From the NCBI GenBank assembly GCA_902563575.1, contig CACEXV010000001.1, forward strand, positions 1 through 64,000: DNA of 64,000 nt, given 5' to 3'. The stretch is from an uncultured Pelagibacteraceae bacterium. GTDB lineage: Bacteria > Pseudomonadota > Alphaproteobacteria > Pelagibacterales > Pelagibacteraceae. The notes beneath the pieces were generated by a model. The model did no database searches. It was not told where the DNA came from and was given only the letters and a program-made list of their open reading frames with translations. This document shows, piece by piece, positions 4,937-37,672 of the stretch. The translations under genes and the position numbers were made by a program. Within the stretch, counting starts at the first letter, position 1; every line of letters starts with the position of its first letter.

Positions 4937-6049
4937 TTAAAATAAATCAATATATTTGTCATAGAATTTGGAAAAATTGCCACGTTTAATTTCTTCTCTC
5001 ATTTTTAGCATAAATTGTTGATAAAAATTAATATTATTCAGTGAAATAAGCATTGAAGCTAACAGTTCATTGGTTTTTATAAGGTGATTTAGATAACTTT
5101 TGGAATATTTATTTAAATTTCTCAATTTGCAATTTTCGTCTAAAGGTGATGTGTCTTTTTGATATTTTGAATTTTTAAGATTAATTGAGCCTGACCACGT
5201 AAAAGCAAGTCCTGTCCTGCCAGATCTAGTTGGCAGAACACAATCAAACATGTCTATGCCTTTAGACACCGCCCCTAATATATCTGAAGGTGTTCCGACG
5301 CCCATCAGATATCTTGGTTTGTTTTTTGGAAGATATCCAACGGTCTCCTCAAGTATCTTGAACATTTCTTTTTGGGACTCGCCGACAGCTAGTCCACCCA
5401 TTGCATAACCATCAAAATCATTTAAAATTAATTTTTCTAAACATTTTAATCTTAAATCTTTATACAATCCCCCTTGAACAATACCAAATAAACCTTTGGT
5501 TTTGTTGTTGCCATTTTCAATTTTACATCTTTTCGCCCAATCAAGAGATATATCAATTGCATTATTTAGGATTTTCCTGTCTTGAGTATATTTCGGACAT
5601 TCGTCAAGGACCATCATAATATCAGAGTTGATATTCTTTTGAATTTGAATGCTTTTTTCAGGGCTAAGAATTATTTTTTTACCATCGGTGTGAGACTTAA
5701 AAATTGCTCCTAAATCTTTATCTATTTTGTTTAATTTAGATAAAGACATTATTTGAAATCCACCGGAGTCTGTCAATATTGGTTTTTGCCAATTCATAAA
5801 ATCATGCAGACCATTAAATTTCTTAATTACTTCCATACCTGGTCTGATCATAAGATGGTAGGTATTTCCAAGAATAATTTGTGATTTTGTAAGATTTAAA
5901 TCTTCAACAAATATTCCCTTAACAGTTCCAAGTGTTCCCACGGGCATAAAGGCTGGTGTATCTATTATACCTCTTGGAGTAAAAATTTTTCCCAATCTAG
6001 ATTTTTGATCCTCAGCAACCAATTCAAAACGAAATTCGTTTTGTTGCAT
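4937..6049 (-). CDS. tgt: Queuine tRNA-ribosyltransferase (TGT) with degenerate zinc site
   Basis: Exchanges guanine-34 for preQ1 in the GUN anticodons of Asp, Asn, His and Tyr tRNAs. The 370 residues are full length. The catalytic region is intact: LTDSGGFQ (Asp94), VLDEC (about 148-151), VQGG, AMGGLAVGE, and the nucleophile block MFDCVLPTRSGRTG with Asp269. The C-terminal zinc motif, normally CxCxxC and a His 26 residues later, reads C307-K-L309-R-N-L312 with Asn338, so only one of four ligands remains. The surrounding fold signature (NKYSKSYLNHL) is well conserved, so this is substitution rather than frameshift. It sits 9 bases downstream of nothing else in its strand's order than the tRNA-Lys side, and follows the cyclophilin gene's 5' neighbour spacing of 9 bases. 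Confidence 0.95.
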   Translation of the reverse strand: MQQNEFRFELVAEDQKSRLGKIFTPRGIIDTPAFMPVGTLGTVKGIFVEDLNLTKSQIILGNTYHLMIRPGMEVIKKFNGLHDFMNWQKPILTDSGGFQIMSLSKLNKIDKDLGAIFKSHTDGKKIILSPEKSIQIQKNINSDIMMVLDECPKYTQDRKILNNAIDISLDWAKRCKIENGNNKTKGLFGIVQGGLYKDLRLKCLEKLILNDFDGYAMGGLAVGESQKEMFKILEETVGYLPKNKPRYLMGVGTPSDILGAVSKGIDMFDCVLPTRSGRTGLAFTWSGSINLKNSKYQKDTSPLDENCKLRNLNKYSKSYLNHLIKTNELLASMLISLNNINFYQQFMLKMREEIKRGNFSKFYDKYIDLF

Positions 6050-6058
6050 ATTTTTAAT

Positions 6059-6616
6059 TTATTTTAATTTAAGACTTACAATGTGATCTGGATCAGACAC
6101 CATTCCATTTGGCCCATCACCTTTTTTTATTTGATCAATATATTCCATGCCTTTTGTAACTTTTCCGAAAGCACTGTATTGACGGTCTAGATGTGGCGCC
6201 GAGTCCAAACATATGAAAAATTGACTATTAAAACTATTTGGATCTGATGATCGCGCAGCAGACAATACTCCTCTAACATGAGCCGTATCTGAAAATTCTG
6301 CATTGACATTAGGAAGATCAGATCCACCTGTGCCAGCTAATTGCAAATTGTAATCTTTATTATTTTTGTTACCGAATTTCACATCTCCTGTTTGAGCCAT
6401 AAAACCATCTATGACTCGATGAAATACAACACCGTTGTATAGACCTTTCTCTGCAAGATCTTTGAATCTTTTTACGTGATTTGGAGCTATTTTATCAAAT
6501 AGTTCGATCTCGACGTTTCCATGTTCTAATTTTAAAATCATCTTAATATCTTCGGCTTTAATTTCATTACTTAATAAACCAAAAATTACTATAAATAAAT
6601 AGATATATTTATTCAT
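6059..6616 (-). CDS. Cyclophilin-type peptidyl-prolyl cis-trans isomerase, exported
   Basis: Catalyses proline isomerisation during folding of periplasmic proteins. Residues 1-21 form a signal peptide ending near EIKA. The cyclophilin core follows, with FHRVIDGFMAQTGD (active-site Arg and the QTGD block), AAARSSDPNSFNSQFFIC and HLDRQYSAFGKVTKGM. Length is 185 residues. Its start overlaps the end of coaD by 8 bases, so the two are translationally linked, in the order gyrA-coaD-cyclophilin-tgt on the minus strand. Confidence 0.93.
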   Translation of the reverse strand: MNKYIYLFIVIFGLLSNEIKAEDIKMILKLEHGNVEIELFDKIAPNHVKRFKDLAEKGLYNGVVFHRVIDGFMAQTGDVKFGNKNNKDYNLQLAGTGGSDLPNVNAEFSDTAHVRGVLSAARSSDPNSFNSQFFICLDSAPHLDRQYSAFGKVTKGMEYIDQIKKGDGPNGMVSDPDHIVSLKLK

Positions 6617-10244: not shown

Positions 10245-13127
10245 ATGTTGAAAAACATCGTAATAAAGGGAGCAAAAGAGCATAATTTAAAAAATATTTC
10301 TCTTGAAGTTCCTAAAGAAAAATTAGTGGTTATTACTGGATTATCTGGATCTGGAAAATCCTCTTTAGCATTTGATACTATTTATGCTGAGGGACAAAGA
10401 AGATATGTTGAAAGTTTATCTGCATACGCAAGACAATTTTTAGATAAAATGAAGAAGCCTAATGTCGATATGATAGAAGGTTTAAGTCCAGCTATATCAA
10501 TTGAACAAAAGAATACTTCTAAAAATCCAAGGTCAACAGTTGCAACTGTTACAGAAATTTATGATTATATGAGAGTATTATATGCTAGAGTTGGAGTCCC
10601 ATATTCACCATTTACTGGCAAGCCAATAGTATCCCAATCAGTTTCAGAAATGGTCGATAAGGTTAGAAGTTTGCCAAAATCTAGCACGATATACCTTCTT
10701 GCGCCAATAGTAAGAGGAAGAAAAGGCGAGTATAAAAAAGAAATTGCCAATTACAAAAAAAGGGGTTTCCAGAAGGTTAAGGTCGACGGAAAATATATTA
10801 ACATTTCAGATTTTCCGGATTTAAATAAGAAAATTAAACATGATATTTCAATAGTTGTTGATAGAATAGTGTTGAATTCATCAATAGGAAACAGATTGGC
10901 AGATAGTATAGAAACAGCATTAAATCTATCAAATGGATTGCTTCTTGCTGAATATGAAAATGAAACTTTACCAAAAAAATACAGAAAAATGGAAAGTATA
11001 TTATTTTCTTCAAAATTCTCATGTCCAGAAAGTGGGTTTACCATTGAGGAAATCGAACCAAGGCTTTTTTCTTTTAATTCTCCTTATGGTGCATGTGAAG
11101 AATGTGAAGGAATAGGTAGTAATCTAAATGTTGATCCTAAACTTGTCGTTCAAGATGATAGCAAAAGTTTGCAAGATGGTGCAATAGTTCCTTGGTCTAA
11201 ATCAACCTCATTATATTATGCGCAAACTCTGTCATCTTTATCCAAACATTACAAATTTTCATTAAATATACCGTGGAAAAAATTACCAAAAAAAATACAA
11301 GATATAATTCTCTTTGGTTCAGATGATGAAGAAATTAAATTTTCTTATGATGATGGGTATGAAACTTATACAACAAGAAAAAGCTTCGAAGGTGTAGTAA
11401 ATAATTTAGAAAGAAGATATTTAGAAACTGAAAGTGAGTGGAAAAGAGAGGAAATCGCTCAATACCAAAGTGAGTCAAATTGTGAAAAATGTAAAGGTTT
11501 CAGACTTAAAGATGAGGCCTTGTGTGTCAAAATTAATTCAAAAAATATTAGCGAAATAACAAAAAAATCAATAGACGAAGCTAAAGAATGGTTTGATAAT
11601 TTACCAAATAAACTTAATGACAAAGAAAATAAGATTGCGCATCATATTCTTAAAGAAATTAATGAAAGATTAAATTTTTTAATTAATGTGGGTTTAAATT
11701 ATTTAACTTTATCACGGGAGTCTGGTACATTGTCTGGTGGAGAAGCCCAACGTATTAGATTAGCGTCTCAAATTGGCTCTGGGCTAACCGGTGTTCTTTA
11801 TGTTCTAGATGAACCTTCTATTGGATTACATCAGAGAGATAATAAAAAGCTTATAAAAGCTTTAAAGAAATTAAGAGACTTAGGAAACACTGTTATTGTT
11901 GTTGAGCATGACATTGAAACTATGGAAAATGCAGATCATATTATTGATATTGGACCTGAAGCTGGATCAAATGGTGGTCAAGTTGTTGTCCAAGGAGATG
12001 TCAAAGATATTATTAACGAGGTAAATAGCATTACTGGAAATTATTTATCTGGAAAAAAACAAATTTTTATTCCTAAAAAAAGAAGATTAGCAAGGAATGG
12101 TAGGTATTTAGAAATAAGTGGCGCTAGTGGTAATAATTTAAAAAGTGTCAATCTTAAGATTCCAATAGGAACGTTTACATGCGTAACTGGTGTATCTGGT
12201 AGTGGTAAATCGACTTTAATATTACATACATTGTATAATGCATTAAATTTAATGCTCAATAAAAACAAATCTAGAAAAATTCCTAAACCATTTAAAGGAT
12301 TTAAGGGAATGGAATTAATTGATAAGGTAATTGATATTGATCAATCTCCAATAGGTCGAACACCTCGATCTAATCCAGCAACATATACTGGAGCATTCGG
12401 TCCAATTAGGGATTGGTTTGCTAATTTACCAGAGTCAAAAGCGAGAGGTTATAAAGTTGGAAGGTTTTCTTTCAATGTTAAAGGAGGCAGATGTGAAACT
12501 TGTGAAGGAGACGGAGTTTTGACTTACGAAATGCATTTTCTTCCAGATGTATTTATTCCATGTGATACTTGCAAAGGAGCTCGTTACAACAGAGAAACTT
12601 TAGAAATTAAGTTTAAAGAAAAAAATATCGCTGATATTTTAGATATGACGGTTGATGAAGGGTGTGATTTTTTTGAAAATATACAAACAATAAGATCAAA
12701 ATTAATAACTTTAAGACACGTAGGTCTAGGATATATGAGAATAGGTCAACAGGCTACAACGTTATCAGGTGGTGAAGCACAAAGAATTAAACTTGCAAAA
12801 GAACTTTCAAAAAGATCGACGGGAAGAACGTTGTATATTCTTGATGAACCTACTACCGGTTTACACTCACATGATATAAAAAAATTATTAGATATTTTAC
12901 AGGCTTTTACAAACACAGGTAATACGGTTCTAGTTATAGAACATAATTTAGATGTAATTAAAACTGCAGACCATATTATTGATATGGGTCCTGAGGGAGG
13001 TATTGCTGGAGGAAATATCATTGCTGAGGGATCACCAGAGAAAGTTGCTAAAGAAAAAAATAGCTATACAGGCCAATTTTTAAATCAAATACTAAATGCA
13101 AGTAGCAAAATGAAAAAAACTGCTTAA
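10245..13127 (+). CDS. uvrA: UvrABC system protein A (excision nuclease ATPase)
   Basis: Damage-recognition ATPase of nucleotide excision repair; loads UvrB. The 960 residues are normal length, with two ABC ATPase halves: Walker A GLSGSGKS at 32-39 and GVSGSGKS near 650, and signatures [15 protein letters not shown] and [15 protein letters not shown]. Zinc-finger cysteines are intact ([29 protein letters not shown]). The ATG at 10245 is the first in frame and begins the conserved [10 protein letters not shown] segment. Confidence 0.98.
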
Positions 13128-37596: not shown

Positions 37597-37672
37597 TCCT
37601 CGGTAGCTCAGTTGGTAGAGCAGTTGACTGTTAATCAATTGGTCGCAGGTTCGAGTCCTGCCCGAGGAGCCA
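37597..37672 (+). tRNA. tRNA-Asn (anticodon GTT)
   Basis: The acceptor TCCTCGG pairs with CCGAGGA, then G and encoded CCA. The anticodon loop CTGTTAA carries GTT and the T-loop is TTCGAGT. The gene is 76 bases and ends one base from the stop codon of the opposing regulator gene. Confidence 0.97.

Follow-up and report, generated by a model that had tools for sequence, protein, structure and literature searches.

A tRNA-guanine transglycosylase that lacks its zinc ligands yet is apparently functional in Pelagibacteraceae, and recurs in other Alphaproteobacteria

The best described relatives of the enzyme discussed here are the tRNA-guanine transglycosylases (TGTs) of Z. mobilis (structures 1pud and 1efz) and E. 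coli, both covered by TIGR00430. The zinc site CxCxxC...H is usual in bacterial TGT but lies outside the curated score definition of TIGR00430. Excerpts of PMC6165067 treat it as a TGT hallmark and state that the eukaryotic TGT (QTRT1/QTRT2), a member of the same superfamily, keeps the site in the non-catalytic subunit as well; in the part available, PMC9508795 lists the E. coli TGT as zinc-requiring. With respect to gene content, the nearest described case is Bartonella henselae. According to the accessible passages of PMC11570991 it has tgt and the importer QPTR but no queA or queG, its bTGT carries a preQ1-type pocket and was shown to work in E. coli, and Pelagibacter is named as the same case. 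The main text of that paper contains the word zinc 0 times. Cys-free alternative ribosomal proteins L31 and L36 also hold their place without the zinc of their relatives, and are described in excerpts of PMC13343924 and PMC5912738 as alternative copies made under zinc scarcity.

The TGT of the window (the whole 64,000-nucleotide stretch of Pelagibacteraceae DNA analyzed here, from a SAR11 (Pelagibacterales) genome) is approximately 50% identical to Z. mobilis TGT and shares the fold, the catalytic Asp pair, the preQ1 pocket and the dimer-interface residues of the Z. mobilis and E. coli enzymes. Three of the four zinc ligands are, however, replaced. Hence, it differs from QTRT1/QTRT2, which keep the site, and from alternative L31 and L36 in that the zinc-free form is the only copy found; activity, shown in E. 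coli for B. henselae bTGT, is predicted for the window enzyme. The minus strand encodes the gene, with a product of 370 aa in the list of open reading frames, the plus strand across the same interval being riddled with stops. The product matches TIGR00430, the bacterial TGT equivalog, over its full length (residues 8-367) with 470.1 bits relative to a cut-off of 306.75. Another complete tgt elsewhere would have refuted the proposal made in the initial annotation; a profile search of the window's own genome (970 kb, 83.7% complete) found no second TGT-family match. Among the best 80 of 265 relatives, the closest named loci are from uncultured Pelagibacteraceae and "Candidatus Pelagibacter ubique" HIMB058, with a TGT identity of about 75%. 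The features referred to below are as follows.

4937..6049, minus strand: tgt, the 370-aa bacterial tRNA-guanine(34) transglycosylase that has lost its zinc ligands (TIGR00430)
5129..5131, minus strand: codon 307, Cys, the sole ligand of CxCxxC left (alignment, codons)
5123..5125, minus strand: codon 309, Leu for the second ligand Cys (alignment, codons)
5114..5116, minus strand: codon 312, Leu for the third ligand Cys (alignment, codons)
5036..5038, minus strand: codon 338, Asn for the ligand His (alignment, codons)
5768..5770, minus strand: codon 94, a conserved catalytic Asp equivalent to Z. mobilis D102 (D in 62/62 SAR11 rows)
5243..5245, minus strand: codon 269, a conserved nucleophilic Asp equivalent to Z. 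mobilis D280 (D in 62/62 SAR11 rows)
6050..6058, no strand: ppiB/tgt gap, 9 bases, where queA sits in the sister-family genome G037 (neighbourhood comparison)
6059..6616, minus strand: peptidyl-prolyl isomerase gene directly upstream of tgt (named by resemblance)
37597..37672, plus strand: tRNA-Asn(GUU), anticodon loop C-U33-G34-U35-U-A-A with the UGU target of TGT (sequence)

In the window TGT, the ligand set C-C-C-H has become C307, L309, L312 and N338, and the structural site CxCxxC...H is absent. The initial annotation had read Cys307-x-Leu309-x2-Leu312 and Asn338, which is correct judging from the codons (TGC AAA TTG AGA AAT TTA for 307-312 and AAT for 338) and from the alignment to Z. 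mobilis TGT, where these positions correspond to residues 318, 320, 323 and 349. We take the latter to be the zinc ligands, in agreement with C-C-C-H at these positions in 159 of 281 aligned TGT rows. These 281 rows include duplicates, since L004/L035, L021/L047 and L070/L123, for example, each represent one genome in two collections. Sequencing error as the cause of the missing ligands was rejected because numerous SAR11 genomes independently show the motif CxIxxL or CxLxxL.

Collectively, the data are best explained by a functional, zinc-free TGT whose product most likely is preQ1-tRNA, a reading to which we assign a probability of roughly 75%. The features expected of a working enzyme are present. 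Residues Y319, H322 and E328, which lie in the subdomain of the zinc site, are unchanged in 62/62 SAR11 rows and K44 in 61/61, and the corresponding Z. mobilis residues presumably form the dimer interface. Moreover, D94, D149, Q192, G219, V222, D269, R275 and R278 are identical in all 62 SAR11 rows; among these, D94, D149, Q192, G219, V222 and D269 we take to be the catalytic Asp pair and base-binding residues. Support for these roles comes from the TGT literature, including excerpts of PMC6165067. The median dN/dS is 0.066 over 27 close pairs, which overlap, and the zinc region has a dN of approximately 0.5 to 2.7 times the whole-gene value, being somewhat faster in several pairs. In the window's family all 28 TGT matches are open frames without stops. 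They come from 28 of 37 genomes, and tgt is probably general in the family because the nine genomes without a match are only 59-75% complete. The AlphaFold model of the window TGT has a pLDDT of 92.9, reaching 93-96 for the blocks that span residues 291-340, and superimposes on Z. mobilis TGT 1efz with TM scores of 0.96/0.95 and an rmsd of 1.4 Å, as expected for the TIM-barrel TGT fold; AlphaFold gives the fold whether the metal is needed or not, and the model does not imply metal-free stability. An enzyme that looks intact and under selection despite lost ligands suggests that zinc is replaceable.

The zinc site is absent from all TGTs read from the window's order. It is lost in 27/27 loci of the same genus, of which 14 read C-I-L-H, and in every one of the 33 Pelagibacteraceae loci from the named collection. 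In the sister family of the same order, 22 of 23 TGT matches could be read and 22/22 read S-N-C-H. The named collection, which comprises the best 80 of 265 relatives and therefore leans to close relatives, has 39 loci with C-C-C-H and 41 that read otherwise, the latter being the 33 Pelagibacteraceae and eight others. Outside the order, S-C-S/T-N is found in Rhizobiaceae C8_MAG_00041, Neorhizobium, Salaquimonas and Pseudohoeflea, S-C-A-N in IMCC14465, L-C-S-H in Rickettsiales AH-716-M15, L-N-S-H in Rhodospirillaceae SP279 and I-C-S-H in AG-895-B20. The two named Rhizobiaceae TGTs read are L072 and L073, both without the site.

A sample of the class Alphaproteobacteria extends this picture. It holds 149 TGT sequences among the matches listed, of 164 genomes with a TGT match (G085 gave two sequences and the window is uncounted). 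C-C-C-H is present in 120/149 and at least one ligand is missing in 29/149, such that the initial annotation's description of the zinc site as nearly universal fails for Alphaproteobacteria. Two or more ligands are missing in 26 of the 29 and one only in two (L162 and L174), while the reading of the last (L258, C-G-C-H) varies with the alignment, so that three Cys may be retained there. In the sample of the phylum, C-C-C-H is found in 61 of 62 TGTs from outside the Alphaproteobacteria, a figure that leans on one family (f143, 20 genomes), and the exception is a broken gene; nine additional alphaproteobacterial TGTs, five of them from one family, are all site-less. Within the phylum sample these sequences thus point to ligand loss as an alphaproteobacterial habit, not a SAR11 oddity. 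The 1.5-Mb genome G308, which has the same family code as genomes of 6-7 Mb and might be Bartonella-like, also has a TGT without the zinc site, and no queA beside tgt. Three side observations were made in these collections. The broken gene (L411, G282:C1:689572-690647) is interrupted near the zinc region by a frameshift or an assembly error. The alphaproteobacterial genome bin G085 has two full TGTs, L145 and L201, with the zinc site intact in both. In the alphaproteobacterial L408, L410 and L238 all four ligands are replaced (S-W-T-I, S-V-A-V), the His by Ile or Val.

Is the loss an adaptation to zinc scarcity, with SAR11 and some other Alphaproteobacteria shedding structural zinc from several proteins? 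We consider this doubtful, although other zinc proteins of the order lend it some support. The CHCC zinc ribbon of DnaG reads S-K-C-S/T in 12/12 loci of the window's order (L319-L330, seven from the window's family and five from the sister family; own-genome locus G000:C2:36338-36610), and ribosomal protein L36 is Cys-free in 11/11 loci, three of them seen in part (own-genome locus L331, G000:C1:282819-282941, is of this type). The DnaG ribbon is also lost in 4/29 class-sample loci (41 genomes matched, 30 loci, 26 aligned and three read by pattern; L354 was left out). In the 18 class genomes that could be compared, the TGT site is lost in 3/3 with DnaG loss vs 2/15 with the DnaG site (Fisher p 0.012, kinship not removed); G081, the fourth genome with DnaG loss, falls outside the 18 as it has no TGT sequence. 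Against zinc scarcity, G087 and G090 have lost the TGT site but keep that of DnaG. In addition, the window UvrA (10245-13127, plus strand) reads CPES (CxxS) in its first zinc module, where E. coli UvrA has a Cys at the changed position. However, this module reads CPxS in 30/30 alphaproteobacterial loci (window included, of 58 genomes matched) and the second module is intact in 30/30; the UvrA change is therefore not special to SAR11.

The distribution of the TGT site also speaks against scarcity, and in particular against low zinc in the open ocean, a cause suggested in the initial annotation. Neorhizobium galegae and a pond Rhizobiaceae genome have lost the site, and Marivita, Sulfitobacter, Cycloclasticus and Catenovulum have kept it; in view of these habitats, the open ocean finds no support as the specific cause. 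An adaptation confined to the open ocean was rejected from the distribution across the named, class and phylum samples. In a weaker form of the idea, whole lineages may economize on structural zinc, which would fit the DnaG and L36 losses. Literature searches that paired DnaG or SAR11 with zinc gave nothing relevant among the matches listed.

The proposed product rests on the gene content of the window's family. queA and queG were found in 0/25 of its genomes (the window's own, 83.7% complete, and two at 94% included), in other words, the full de novo queuosine pathway, gauged by queA plus queG, was not found, vs 15/16 (queA) and 14/16 (queG) in the sister family. The gene order is coaD-ppiB-queA-tgt in the sister-family genome G037 (L278, queA at 1397-2419) and coaD-ppiB-tgt in the window and in G148. 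The ppiB-tgt spacing is 10 bases or less in 32/32 named Pelagibacteraceae loci with both genes (the 33rd is cut off) relative to about 1,020 in L278. In these loci queA has been lost from between ppiB and tgt, with tgt retained. A QPTR-family importer (PF02592) is present in 23/25 genomes of the family, the own-genome match scoring 94.7 bits. At the gene level, an importer of this kind together with a preQ1-type TGT corresponds to what preQ1 salvage would need. Moreover, the tRNA-Asn of the window carries the U33-G34-U35 target, where base exchange is predicted to occur. Since queA and queG are missing and the importer is kept, preQ1-tRNA rather than queuosine is likely to be the end product in the SAR11 family of the window. 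The initial annotation had counted a lack of queuosine against its proposal. Given that neither queA nor queG was found in the family, queuosine is indeed probably lacking, yet the enzyme most likely uses preQ1. Loss of the zinc site cannot be tied to loss of queA, as the sister family has queA and nevertheless lacks the site.

Salvage of preQ1 in Pelagibacter is known as a proposal and is not new: excerpts of PMC11570991 already put it forward. In these excerpts the paper is inconsistent, as Pelagibacter is given as lacking the later genes while tgt, queA and queG are ascribed to all analyzed alphaproteobacteria except Bartonella. As an aside, the Pfam search for QueF returned mostly weak matches of 21-28 bits in frames around 200 aa long, interpreted here as FolE. 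Of the 41 genomes searched, a single one, the same-genus G023, has a clear QueF (L114, G023:C53:20007-20231, 66.9 bits).

Changed specificity, with queuine or preQ0 inserted rather than preQ1, would account for the missing post-TGT steps, which according to excerpts of PMC11570991 are also missing in the queuine-salvaging Chlamydia. We regard this as improbable: the pocket is of the preQ1 type, with V222 and C151 in 62/62 and L220 in 61/62 SAR11 rows, and the same excerpts read the Pelagibacter pocket in the same way.

A metal could also be bound through other ligands, e.g., C307 together with residues elsewhere in the chain or in the partner subunit. C307 is kept in 48/62 and His338 in 51/62 SAR11 rows; still, both are often replaced themselves, and C307 and H322 are the only Cys or His among window residues 285-370. 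H322 is present in 122/122 zinc-less and 152/159 zinc-bearing rows, and hence the sequence shows no other set of ligands nearby. The mean number of extra Cys per row is 0.05 in SAR11, 0.09 in the sister family and 0.26 in other zinc-less rows vs 0.31 in C-C-C-H rows. With only C307 and H322 available and no Cys excess in zinc-less rows, substitute Cys/His ligands inside the subdomain were rejected. On the whole, retention of a metal through other ligands is quite improbable. Alternative ligands had been raised as a point to check at the outset; none are apparent within the C-terminal subdomain, residues 285-370. Finally, a decaying, useless TGT left behind after loss of the queuosine pathway, to which the lack of queA and queG in the family might point, is highly improbable given the median dN/dS of 0.066, the stop-free frames of all 28 family matches, the unchanged active site (observations that rule out a pseudogene) and the fact that the sister family, with queA and queG, also lacks the zinc site. 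The zinc-independent TGT of the initial annotation, taken as an otherwise normal enzyme, is, by comparison of sequences, well supported by the lineage-wide loss, the intact active site, purifying selection and the lack of alternative ligands.

How often the site was lost was addressed with trees, as the initial annotation had proposed. The mapping upholds a lineage-wide loss in SAR11 and adds losses in other Alphaproteobacteria, with the zinc-site state changing repeatedly, about 9 to 17 times. On trees of 190 TGTs selected from the 281 rows, with the zinc region excluded, 15 (FastTree) and 17 (IQ-TREE quick) state changes were counted, at least six of them forced by starred branches, the stars of the quick tree being less trustworthy. 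A mixture-model tree of 57 rows hand-picked from the 190 gave nine changes (bootstrap range 8-10) and, among 200 bootstrap trees, none (0%) with a single origin; its starred branches, however, force only two changes. The placement of the SAR11 rows is insecure because of their unusual composition. Loss and regain are not told apart by these counts; a lineage seems unlikely to have recovered several ligands, and transfer may be part of the pattern.

The form of the loss is regular. Across the 281 rows, His is never missing where all three Cys are present, and a lost His is replaced by Asn in 23/25; nine His/Asn changes are seen on the 190-row tree, and in the nine further alphaproteobacterial rows six have Asn at this position, while Ile, Val and the original His occur once each. 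In SAR11, position 309 is Ile or Leu in 50/62 rows and 312 is Leu in 57/62. Outside the window's order, 307 has mainly become Ser and 312 Ser, Ala or Thr, with 309 still Cys in 26/38. This pattern could be read as packing or hydrogen bonding standing in for the metal cluster.

Hence, we suggest the following model. In SAR11 two Cys of the site have changed, mostly to Ile or Leu (L309 and L312 in the window), and the His is kept or has become Asn. The C-terminal subdomain, which Zn2+ holds together in other TGTs, would keep its fold by ordinary packing. The zinc-free enzyme would still dimerize and would exchange G34 of GUN tRNAs; in a family without queA and queG and with a QPTR-type importer, imported preQ1 would be inserted as the end product. 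Data from other Alphaproteobacteria may bear on the activity of zinc-less TGTs. In the available part of PMC3568095, an insertion mutant in tgt of Sinorhizobium meliloti has lost the ability to deform HeLa cells and shows a defect in symbiosis, the complementation in that work being of queF and not of tgt. When supplied with preQ1, an E. coli queDF tgt strain regains Q-tRNA in part with the TGT of B. henselae (PMC11570991, in excerpts). Both organisms are Hyphomicrobiales, and by analogy these results might extend to zinc-less TGTs through the site-less Rhizobiaceae relatives L072 and L073, as opposed to the two organisms' own sequences.

Tentatively, and with the odds somewhat against it, the data can be read more widely: Alphaproteobacteria may, time and again, have turned nucleic-acid enzymes that depend on zinc into metal-free ones. 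For TGT this reading involves two routes, a hydrophobic one (C-I/L-L-H/N, SAR11) and a small polar one (S-C-S/A/T-H/N, Rhizobiaceae and others), with convergent His-to-Asn replacement, and to these the primase ribbon is added, in part in the same lineages. If true, wobble modification and priming in SAR11 run without zinc in sites held to be essential.

No report of zinc-site loss in TGT was found in the titles, abstracts or passages of the literature covered, mostly excluding subscription journals, and zinc terms are absent from the E. coli cryo-EM paper PMC13416341. The window TGT represents a real and recurrent form of a known enzyme, zinc-free and apparently functional. Natural zinc-free TGTs in bacteria that rank among the most abundant in the ocean, and in rhizobia, would make zinc a replaceable scaffold of this enzyme, and zinc-free and zinc-bearing TGTs would provide ready comparison pairs for the role of the metal. 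Estimates of zinc demand that count TGT as a zinc protein would need correcting. Moreover, the parallel loss in DnaG makes it testable whether some lineages systematically shed structural zinc.
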